From contig NZ_JAKSXZ010000144.1 of NCBI RefSeq assembly GCF_022829465.1, positions 62,001-126,000 of the forward strand: a stretch of DNA of 64,000 bases, read 5' to 3'. Shown piece after piece: positions 14,552-18,201 of this stretch. The notes under the pieces are model-generated. The model was not told the origin of the DNA. It saw only the letters and a list, made by a program, of their open reading frames with translations, and made no database searches. The position numbers and the translations under genes were made by a program. Position 1 is the stretch's first letter. Every line of letters begins with the position of its first letter. The stretch comes from Methylobacterium sp. J-067 (lineage in GTDB: Bacteria > Pseudomonadota > Alphaproteobacteria > Rhizobiales > Beijerinckiaceae).

Positions 14552-16083
14552 CGCATCGACGTACCACCAGACATAGCCGTTGTGCCCGACCTGCCCGTCG
14601 AACCGAGGTCGGCGAGGATCGCCGCCGCCGCGAGCCTCCCCGATTGCGCCGCCATCGGCACGCCCGGCCCCGGATGGACTGAGCCCCCCGCGAGGTAGAG
14701 CCCCGCCACCTTGGTCCGTGCCCCCGGGCGCTTGAAGGTCGCCGCCCAGCCCTGCGAGGCCCGCCCGTACAGGGCGCCCTGGCTCCCCGGGAACAGGCCC
14801 GCGAACGCCTCCGGCGTCGTGACCGTGGCCGCTGATTCCCGCGTCAGGGACAAGCCGCAGGCGTGCAGCCGCGCCTTCAGGTTGGTCTCGCATCGGGCGA
14901 TCTCCGTGGCAGGCAAGGGGCGCTCCGTGCCGTCGGCCGGGGCGTTGACGAGCATCAGCAGGCGCTCCGGCCCGCCGGGAAATGCGCCCTCGGCGCTGCG
15001 GTCCTGGGCGCAGACGTAGACCGTGGGGTCGGTGGGCAGGCGGCGGTCGCGCAGGATCGTGTCGAATTCGGCGCGGTAGTCGCGGGAGAAGAACACCGTG
15101 TGGTGGGCCAGCGGAAAGCCCGCCGTCTCGGCCCGTACGCAGTACGTCACCGCCGAGAGCGAGCGCTCGGCCCGCCCGATCCGGTCCCCGGCCGGCGCCG
15201 CCGCGCGGCCCAGCAGCCCCGCGCCCAGAGCCGCCACGTCGCCGTTGCAGACCACGACATCCGCCGGGATGCGCCCGCCGCCCGCGAGCCGCACGCCCGT
15301 GACCTTGCCCCCGGAGACCTCGATCTCCTGGACATGGGTGCCGTAGCGGAACTCCGCCCCGATCTCGACCGCGAGGCCGGCGATGGAGGCGGCGAGCGCG
15401 CTCAAGCCCCCCTGCACGGTCCAGACGCCCGCCTGCTCCACATGCGCCACCAGCATCAGCGTCGCCGGGGTGGTGAAGGGCGAGGCGCCGCAATAGGTGG
15501 CGTAGCGCCCGAACAGCTGCAGCAGGCGCGGATCGTGGAAATACTCCTTCAGCGCCGACCAGAGCGTCGCGAAGGGCTGGATGCGCCACAGGTCGCCGAT
15601 CCCGGAAATGCCGACCCGCTTGGCGAGCCCCGTCGGTCCCGTCTGGCCGGAGCGGATGAAGGGCCCCTCCAGGGTGCGGTAGACCTCCGCCGCGCGGGCG
15701 CAGAACCGCCGGTAGCCCTCCGCCTCGCCCGCTCCCGCGAAGGCGTGGATCGCCGCCGCCGAGGCGTCGATGTCGGCGAAGAGGTCGAGGCGTTCGTCGG
15801 GGCTCCAGGCGTGGCGGGCCAGCAGGCTCGCATCCCGCAGGGTCACGCGCTCGGCGAGGCGCGCGCCGCACTCGGCCAGAAGCTCCTCGAACACCCAGCG
15901 CATGGTGAAGACGGTCGGCCCCGCCTCGATGCGCGTGCCGTCCACGGGCACCGCGCGCATCTTGCCGCCCGGCGCCTCGGCGCGCTCCACCACCGTGACC
16001 GACAGGCCGGCACGGGCGAGCCTCAGGGCGGCGGCGAGCCCGCCGATCCCGGCTCCGATCACGACGACGCGCGTGGCCGACAC
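14548..16083 (-). CDS. crtD: hydroxyneurosporene desaturase (CrtI-family)
   Basis: FAD-dependent carotenoid 3,4-desaturase (511 aa from GTG). It has an N-terminal dinucleotide-binding motif VVIGAGIGGLAAALRLA followed by the E of VVERAEAPGGKM. The C-terminal CrtI signature is KVAGLYLAGGSVHPGPGVPMA. The GTG at 16083 gives a normal-length CrtD N-terminus; a TTG at 16134 would add 17 residues but sits inside the regulatory palindrome. Divergent from crtE; the PpsR/CrtJ operator at 16128-16147 lies just upstream, so light and oxygen control with the other photosynthesis genes is expected. crtC follows with a 4-base overlap. Confidence 0.9.
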   Translation of the reverse strand: MSATRVVVIGAGIGGLAAALRLARAGLSVTVVERAEAPGGKMRAVPVDGTRIEAGPTVFTMRWVFEELLAECGARLAERVTLRDASLLARHAWSPDERLDLFADIDASAAAIHAFAGAGEAEGYRRFCARAAEVYRTLEGPFIRSGQTGPTGLAKRVGISGIGDLWRIQPFATLWSALKEYFHDPRLLQLFGRYATYCGASPFTTPATLMLVAHVEQAGVWTVQGGLSALAASIAGLAVEIGAEFRYGTHVQEIEVSGGKVTGVRLAGGGRIPADVVVCNGDVAALGAGLLGRAAAPAGDRIGRAERSLSAVTYCVRAETAGFPLAHHTVFFSRDYRAEFDTILRDRRLPTDPTVYVCAQDRSAEGAFPGGPERLLMLVNAPADGTERPLPATEIARCETNLKARLHACGLSLTRESAATVTTPEAFAGLFPGSQGALYGRASQGWAATFKRPGARTKVAGLYLAGGSVHPGPGVPMAAQSGRLAAAAILADLGSTGRSGTTAMSGGTSMR

Positions 16084-16147: not shown

Positions 16148-16183
16148 ATGGCGATGGCAACCCGCCATGACAGGGAGGGCGGC

Positions 16184-17053
16184 ATGGAGCCCGGCGCGCG
16201 GATCGAATCGGCCCTCGACAGGGCTGTCGCCTACTCGGAGGCGCCCGGCGCGCCACCCCTTCTGGCGGAAGCGATGCGCTACGCCGTCTTCCCCGGCGGG
16301 CACCGCATCCGGCCCCGGCTCTGCCTCTCCGTGGCGCGGGCCTGCGGCGACGACGATCCCCTCGGCGCCGACTCGGCTGCGGCGGCGATCGAGCTTCTGC
16401 ATTGCGCCTCCCTCGTCCACGACGACCTGCCCTGCTTCGACGACGCGCCGACGCGCCGCCAGAAGGACACGGTCCACATCGCCTTCGGCACGCCCATCGC
16501 CGTCCTCACAGGGGATGCGCTGATCGTGCTCGCCTTCGAGACCCTGGCGCGGGGATCGTGGCGGCATCCGCGCCGGCTCGCGCGGCTCGTCGGGCTTCTC
16601 GGCCGGGCGGCGGGCTCGCCCTCCGGCATCGCGGCGGGGCAGGCCTGGGAATCCGAGGCGCATGTCGACCTCAGCGCCTACCAGCAGGCCAAGACCGGCG
16701 CGCTCTTCGCGGCGGCGACGGTGGCCGGTGCGGCGGCGGCGGGGGCCGAGCCGGAGCCGTGGCGGCGCCTCGGCGAGGCCCTGGGCGAGGCCTATCAGGT
16801 GGCCGACGACCTGCGCGACGTCGCCTGTCGCCAGGAGGAGATCGGCAAGCCCGCCGGGCGCGACGCGACCCTCGGGCGGCCCAACGCGGCGGCGCTGCTC
16901 GGCACGGGCGGCGCCCTCGACAGACTGAAGCGCCTCACCCGCGAGGCCATCGCGGCGGTGCCGGATTGCCCCGGCGCGAAGGGGCTGACGGTGGAAATCG
17001 AGGCGCAGGCCCGGCTGTTCCTGCCGGCGAGCCTGCGGGCGGTGTCGGCCTGA
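16184..17053 (+). CDS. crtE: geranylgeranyl diphosphate synthase
   Basis: Prenyl transferase (289 aa) making the C20 precursor for carotenoids and the bacteriochlorophyll tail. The first aspartate-rich motif is VHDDLPCFDD (D80, D81, D86, D87) and the second is DDLRD at 208-212; FPGGHRIRPRL near residue 37 is the conserved substrate-binding arginine region. The ATG at 16184 follows a strong GGGAGGGCGG ribosome site; an ATG at 16148 adds 12 residues but overlaps the operator. crtF follows with overlapping stop/start, so the two are coupled. Expected to be under PpsR control through the operator just upstream. Confidence 0.9.
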   Translation: MEPGARIESALDRAVAYSEAPGAPPLLAEAMRYAVFPGGHRIRPRLCLSVARACGDDDPLGADSAAAAIELLHCASLVHDDLPCFDDAPTRRQKDTVHIAFGTPIAVLTGDALIVLAFETLARGSWRHPRRLARLVGLLGRAAGSPSGIAAGQAWESEAHVDLSAYQQAKTGALFAAATVAGAAAAGAEPEPWRRLGEALGEAYQVADDLRDVACRQEEIGKPAGRDATLGRPNAAALLGTGGALDRLKRLTREAIAAVPDCPGAKGLTVEIEAQARLFLPASLRAVSA

Positions 17054-18201
17054 GCCGGGGCGCGGCCCTGTCGGATCCCCCGGCGGCGCGCCCGCGTCCG
17101 CTCTCCGAGCGCTGGCTGGCGCTGCGCAACCGCCTCGTGGCGAGCCCGCGCTTCCAGCGCTGGGCGGCGGGTTTCCCGCTGACGCGGCGCATCGCGCGAG
17201 GGAACACACGCGCGCTGTTCGATCTCTGCGCCGGCTTCGTCTACGCGCAGGTGCTGACGGCCTGCATCCGCCTCGACCTGTTCTCGATCCTGGCGGAGGG
17301 GCCGATGACGATTGAGGCCCTGGCCGTGCGCCTCGGCCTGCCACCGGAGAAGGCGCGGACGCTGCTCCTCGCTGCCCGCTCCCTCGACCTGATTCGCGCT
17401 CTGCCGGACGGGCGCTTCGCCCTGGCCGACCTAGGCGCCGCCGTCACCGGCAATCCCGGCATCGCGGCGATGGTCGAGCACCACGCCCTGCTCTACGCCG
17501 ACCTCGCGGATCCGGTCGCCCTGTTGCAGGGCCGCACGGAGCGCACGCGGCTCTCCTCTTACTGGCCCTATGCCGAGGGCGGCGCCGTCGCGCCGGGCGA
17601 GGCCGCCCCCTACGGCGCGCTGATGGGCACGTCCCAGGCGATGATCGCGCAGGACATCATCGAGGCCTGCGACCTGCGCGGCATCCGCCACTGGATGGAT
17701 GTCGGGGGCGGGGAGGGGGCCTTCCTCGAAGCCGCCGCGCCGCACCTGCCGGGGCGCCGGCTCACCCTGTTCGACCTGCCCGCCGTGGCGGAACGGGCCG
17801 GCGCGCGCCTCGGCCGCGTCGGGCTCGGCGACCGGATCGCATGCATTGGCGGCGATTTCCATACCGGCTTGCCGGAGGGCGCCGACGCGATCTCCCTCGT
17901 GCGCGTCCTGCACGACCACGACGACGCACCGGTCCGGGCGCTGCTGCGCGCGGCCTATGCGGCGCTGGCCCCCGGCGGACGCCTCGTCATCGCCGAACCG
18001 ATGGCGGGAACGCCCGGCGCGGAGCCGGTGGGGGACGCCTATTTCGGCTTCTACCTGCTGGCGATGGGCTCCGGCCGTCCCCGGACGGCAGACGAACTGT
18101 CACGCCTGGCCCACGAGGCCGGATTCGCGGCGACGAAAGAGCGCAAAACCCGTCGTCCCCTGCTCGCCCGTGTGCTCGTCGCACACAAAACCGGCAGATG
18201 A
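17050..18201 (+). CDS. crtF: hydroxyneurosporene/demethylspheroidene O-methyltransferase
   Basis: SAM-dependent methyltransferase (about 383 aa) forming the methoxy group of spheroidene/spirilloxanthin-type carotenoids. It has an N-terminal dimerisation domain with SPRFQRWAAGFPLTRRIA and FDLCAGFVYAQVL, then a C-terminal SAM fold with motif I MDVGGGEGAFLEAA and LVRVLHDHDD. The start is unclear. The family-like N-terminus begins before the first ordinary in-frame start codon (GTG at 17137). The only overlap-type candidate is CTG at 17050, which would share CTGA with the crtE stop. The lower coordinate is reported here; if GTG 17137 is right the protein is 354 aa. Confidence 0.85.
   Translation: MSRGAALSDPPAARPRPLSERWLALRNRLVASPRFQRWAAGFPLTRRIARGNTRALFDLCAGFVYAQVLTACIRLDLFSILAEGPMTIEALAVRLGLPPEKARTLLLAARSLDLIRALPDGRFALADLGAAVTGNPGIAAMVEHHALLYADLADPVALLQGRTERTRLSSYWPYAEGGAVAPGEAAPYGALMGTSQAMIAQDIIEACDLRGIRHWMDVGGGEGAFLEAAAPHLPGRRLTLFDLPAVAERAGARLGRVGLGDRIACIGGDFHTGLPEGADAISLVRVLHDHDDAPVRALLRAAYAALAPGGRLVIAEPMAGTPGAEPVGDAYFGFYLLAMGSGRPRTADELSRLAHEAGFAATKERKTRRPLLARVLVAHKTGR

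Follow-up and report, generated by a model that had tools for sequence, protein, structure and literature searches.

The crtF gene in the window, which is the whole 64,000-nucleotide stretch of Methylobacterium sp. J-067 DNA analyzed here, very probably starts at a CUG codon through termination-reinitiation coupled to crtE. The suggestion draws on the geometry of the crtE/crtF junction, its conservation among relatives, a codon periodicity that sets in with the CTG, and constraint on the first base of that codon, a C. The window contains a carotenoid and photosynthesis gene cluster, with crtC and crtD on the minus strand and crtE and crtF on the plus strand, and the parts of the crtE-crtF locus are as follows.

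16148-17053, plus strand: crtE, polyprenyl (GGPP-type) synthase, from the sequence and PF00348 (157.9 bits, cut-off 27).
17037-17044, plus strand: SD-like GGGCGGTG in the last crtE codons, 5 nt upstream of the CTG, from pairing with a presumed anti-SD sequence.
17050-17052, plus strand: CTG, the proposed crtF start, which overlaps the crtE stop as CTGA in 30 of 30 clade genomes.
17050-18201, plus strand: crtF as proposed, a 383-residue O-methyltransferase with PF00891 at 139.4 bits and PF08100 at 34.5 bits.
17053-17100, plus strand: CrtF N-terminal extension, SRGAALSDPPAARPRP in the window, with third-position variation from codon 2 onward.
17101-17136, plus strand: conserved CrtF N-terminal motif LSERWLALRNRL, from codon-position entropy.
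17137-17139, plus strand: GTG, the first ordinary start codon 3' of the crtE stop, read here as an internal Val.

The crtE gene ends with TGA at 17051-17053, and crtF occupies the -1 frame relative to it, open through to the stop at 18201. The only start-like codon that fits crtF is the CTG that overlaps this TGA. The first in-frame ATG, GTG, or TTG past the crtE stop, GTG 17137, has the motif LSERWLALRNRL upstream of it. In the 5' direction, the nearest ordinary in-frame start is TTG 16966, located within crtE 28 codons before the CTG. The first-pass annotation had described crtF as lacking an ordinary start before its conserved N-terminus and as having a CTG on the crtE stop, which is exact, with the upstream TTG to be added. 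The crtF product has O-methyltransferase (PF00891) and dimerization (PF08100) domains, both above the Pfam cut-offs. Among the NCBIfam models, only TIGR02716 (BchU; 72.7 bits with a cut-off of 276.1) and NF053543 matched it, both below cut-off, and we take the gene to be crtF from the neighboring crtC, crtD, and crtE and from general knowledge of such clusters. A PDB search with CrtF retrieved distant methyltransferases, and, because every one of the matches listed (60 of 88) begins at residue 43 or later, that search is uninformative on the N-terminus.

For comparison, crtF was searched for in a GTDB contig collection, where the best 80 of 511 relatives were taken as named loci, and in 111 genomes of the genus Methylobacterium, 109 of which gave a match while two (G016 and G018) gave none at an E value of 0.001. 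Since the named and genus sets overlap, the crtF counts come from the genus set alone. Leaving out G029 (33% identity) and G104 (a fragment), 107 loci were analyzed, i.e., the window and 106 others, and 105 of them, the window included, possess both crtE and crtF; these 105 are the basis of the junction counts, with L161 and L186, which lack crtE, excluded. In the crtF tree of 103 rows (L161, L186, L187, and L188 excluded), a single clade with support of 100/99 unites the window with 29 others (L083-L111). Single in-frame stops lie inside the crtF match in L091 (G095), G072, G110, and G038.

The comparison with closely related strains, which the first-pass annotation had proposed as a check, bears out the peculiarity of the junction: CTGA is found in all 30 clade genomes, as GCCTGA in 28 and GTCTGA in two. 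On its own, a CTGA in frame with crtF is not unusual: nine of the 75 genomes outside the clade have it too, all nine with an ordinary start downstream, showing that such an overlap can arise by chance; its sharing by all 30 clade genomes goes beyond chance. One of these nine, G108, which branches beside the clade with an SH-aLRT of 87 on a quick tree, has GTG and ATG a few codons past its CTG. When near-cognate codons were tabulated in the 25 clade genomes of equal length, CTG was the only one common to all 25. The upstream TTG, which is the sole ordinary crtF-frame start within 60 codons before the CTG, is found in five of the 30 clade relatives.

The codon periodicity around the CTG was examined as mean column entropy at crtF codon positions 1/2/3 in 25 of the 30 clade genomes, those with equal spacing. 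The 30 codons before the CTG give 0.50/0.17/0.20, which is the pattern of crtE, while codons 2-8 after it give 0.42/0.23/0.99, with a permutation p of 0.010, and codons 2-20 a p of 0.005, both values ignoring the relatedness of the genomes. Codons 9-20 (1.25/0.76/1.23) have no third-position bias relative to position 1, and the pattern of crtF is seen in codons 21-30, in the region of the motif (0.19/0.19/0.83), and in codons 31-60 (0.13/0.11/0.87). Being crtE-like before the CTG and crtF-like after it, the entropy pattern indicates that the selected frame changes at the CTG and that the middle of the extension is loose. In most clade members the residues after the CTG read [ST]AGS[LV]P..., and the conserved N-terminal motif has the form [DE]RWLAWRNRL.

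These data bear directly on the possibility that crtF starts instead at an ordinary downstream codon, GTG 17137 in the window and GTG, TTG, or ATG in relatives, with the extension being just leftover sequence. GTG 17137 does exist, an ordinary start is present 18-25 codons before the anchor (-18 to -25) in 20 of the 30 clade genomes, and the Pfam dimerization match starts only from residue 54 of the CTG-start protein. The motif that precedes GTG 17137 is, however, strongly codon-constrained, and the periodicity is already apparent in codons 2-8. Moreover, the incidental ordinary starts of those 20 genomes are scattered over six different codon positions, and the place of GTG 17137 is without an ordinary start codon in 10 of the 30. 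Between the crtE stop and the motif, ATG, GTG, and TTG are all absent from 10 of the 30 clade genomes (the window, G077, G095, G088, G017, G080, G028, G067, G027, and G089) versus one of the 75 outside, the other 74 having ATG (54) or GTG without ATG (20). Two of the 10, L094 (G017) and L104 (G089), have no ordinary start all the way from the crtE stop through the place of GTG 17137. A downstream start would also leave the frozen C of the CTG, described below, unaccounted for, and translation from GTG 17137, or from its counterparts in relatives, is therefore unlikely. The lone exception outside the clade is G050. One substitution and two bases in a C run separate it from its near-twin, G049; the C-run difference between the pair (L141/L142) puts an ATG out of frame in one of them, and reflects either an assembly error or a real change.

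The second alternative is -1 ribosomal frameshifting that would yield a CrtE-CrtF fusion. The first-pass annotation had raised non-AUG starts or frameshifts as a way to couple paired enzymes; of the two, the non-AUG (CTG) start coupled to crtE is supported, and frameshifting is not. It is true that all 30 clade genomes have crtF in the -1 frame relative to crtE, but any CTGA overlap forces this frame relation. A slippery heptamer occurs in only nine of the 30, 27 codons before the stop, and is not conserved, and a slip at the last crtE codon (GCC or GTC) would need re-pairing with GGC, AGC, or GGT, which is a poor fit, so frameshifting seems very improbable. A base-call error, which the first-pass annotation had named as the refuting case, or a decayed gene can practically be dismissed for the clade as a whole, because 30 separately assembled genomes share the same CTGA and the window crtF has an otherwise open frame and scores that exceed the Pfam cut-offs. 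No positive evidence of either was found, the window genome being a draft of 146 contigs.

The C of the CTG occupies the wobble position of the last crtE codon, and every change of it would be silent in crtE: the replacement of GCC by GCA, GCG, or GCT would give crtF an AUG, GUG, or UUG start, respectively. On the clade tree parsimony assigns 0 changes to this base, while the median for 149 fourfold-degenerate crtE sites is 6. Only six of the 149 sites are invariant across the 30 genomes, and only two of the six are C, one of them being the C of the CTG. The last 16 crtE codons, which have 11 fourfold sites, contain four of the six unchanged ones, compared with two of 138 elsewhere (P 2.3e-4, with the 16-codon limit picked after the data had been seen). 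At this position, the 75 genomes outside the clade have C in 35 cases, G in 31, T in eight, and A in one, and 15 changes are counted there (73 tree rows, 12.8 tree units) versus none in the clade (4.6 tree units). A single silent change in crtE would supply AUG, GUG, or UUG, yet none of the 30 species took one, and the CUG may have been retained by selection.

If crtF is translated by the coupled CUG start that we favor, ribosomes would terminate crtE at the TGA, be kept nearby by the SD-like GGCGGTG of the last crtE codons, and step back by one base to restart on the CUG that overlaps it (CUGA, a -4 overlap), with fMet as the presumed first residue. CrtF would then be made only where CrtE is made, because the restarting ribosomes are those ending crtE, and its ratio to CrtE would probably be low. 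Pairing of the last crtE codons with the anti-SD is somewhat, though not decisively, stronger than in synonymous randomizations, with a mean z of -1.4 and a median fraction as strong of 0.116 over the 30 genomes, for a presumed anti-SD that may not be that of the host; in L092 the pairing is worse than the randomization mean. One possibility, put forward tentatively on the strength of the frozen C, is that the CUG is kept on purpose as a deliberate brake on CrtF, a selected, weak, reinitiation-dependent start that sets the CrtE:CrtF ratio.

Gene pairs with a -4 overlap are a known geometry of termination-reinitiation coupling, for which ATGA and GTGA are named in the portion of the source available to us (PMC10666635). 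The crtE/crtF pair resembles them in that both genes are on the same strand and belong to one pathway, the stop and start overlap as NTGA, and the upstream gene carries an SD-like tract, while it differs in having CTGA, not ATGA or GTGA, across the whole clade and in that the coupling is predicted from sequence. The NTGA overlap is present in 30 of 30 clade genomes, and the start in it is CTG in 30 of 30 rather than ATG or GTG. Counting against a CUG start, initiation at CUG yields 0.86% of the AUG level in Escherichia coli, and CUG accounts for 0.024% of bacterial starts (PMC11497404); ancestral reconstruction gave only two switches to CUG among 61,358 ancestral AUG starts (PMC5622118). The crtF gene would be like these rare bacterial cases in using CUG in place of AUG, GUG, or UUG (PMC11497404, PMC5622118), but, unlike the rare switches in the latter report, all 30 species have the CUG, and its C appears to be selected. 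Judging by the titles and abstract openings of the literature searched, a CTG start is not reported for crtF in any of the papers found.

The first-pass annotation had also ascribed the same oddity to crtC. In the window this does not hold, because crtC has an ordinary GTG (14551-14549, minus strand) overlapping the crtD TGA, but the codon at this place is often CTG in relatives: in 127 loci with the crtD stop at the same place, taken from the named and genus sets together so that some genomes are counted twice, it is CTG in 69, GTG in 52, TTG in five, and GTA in one. Upstream of that codon, inside the end of crtD, a PRFD...GYxWWYVDA segment is conserved in the crtC frame; in the window the PRFD...WWYVDA segment occupies 14552-14608 on the minus strand, and it is conserved in Methylobacterium and Chromatiaceae loci. 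With the segment read from PRFD, the alignment to the NCBI CrtC model does not start until residue 30 (281.8 bits, short of the cut-off of 400). The periodicity of crtD gives way to that of crtC between codons -5 and 0 in 19 clade loci. Only two of 146 loci (L074 and L129) have an ordinary start in the 40 codons that precede the PRFD segment, the frame relation of crtC to crtD is held in 144 of the 146, and the crtD tails have seven lengths in 143 measured loci, all differing by whole codons. The upstream segment of crtC is possibly more puzzling than the crtF case. Since near-cognate codons are missing between -15 and +1 of the crtD/crtC switch in 51 of 91 loci, an upstream CTG start is not transferable to crtC, and a mechanism common to crtC and crtF was rejected; 30 of the other 40 loci have ATC at -13. 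A slippery heptamer was found at crtD/crtC in three of 144 loci and is not conserved, and titles and abstract openings in the literature disclosed nothing on the crtD/crtC overlap.

Two other organisms deserve mention with regard to crtC. In Thiodictyon, crtC has a GTGA start close to PRFD, and in Candidatus Thiodictyon syntrophicum (L189, 1-1801) two tandem crtD genes are annotated before crtC. On the Roseobacter litoralis plasmid NC_015741, the annotated crtC (WP_044025795.1; L192, 1840) is similar to crtF in that its RefSeq CDS starts from a CTG on the crtD TGA as CTGA; it differs in being another gene and in that its match to the window CrtC begins upstream of the annotated start.

In a practical sense, gene finders limited to ATG, GTG, and TTG would truncate proteins that start at CUG. 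A clade-wide CUG in a stop-start overlap would also be a natural case in which to test if ribosomes that reinitiate tolerate codons rejected in free initiation, and if selection favors weak starts as a means of fixing the ratios of enzymes. If the CUG of crtF is indeed selected, it would mean that a ribosome that has just terminated accepts a codon that is otherwise hardly used.
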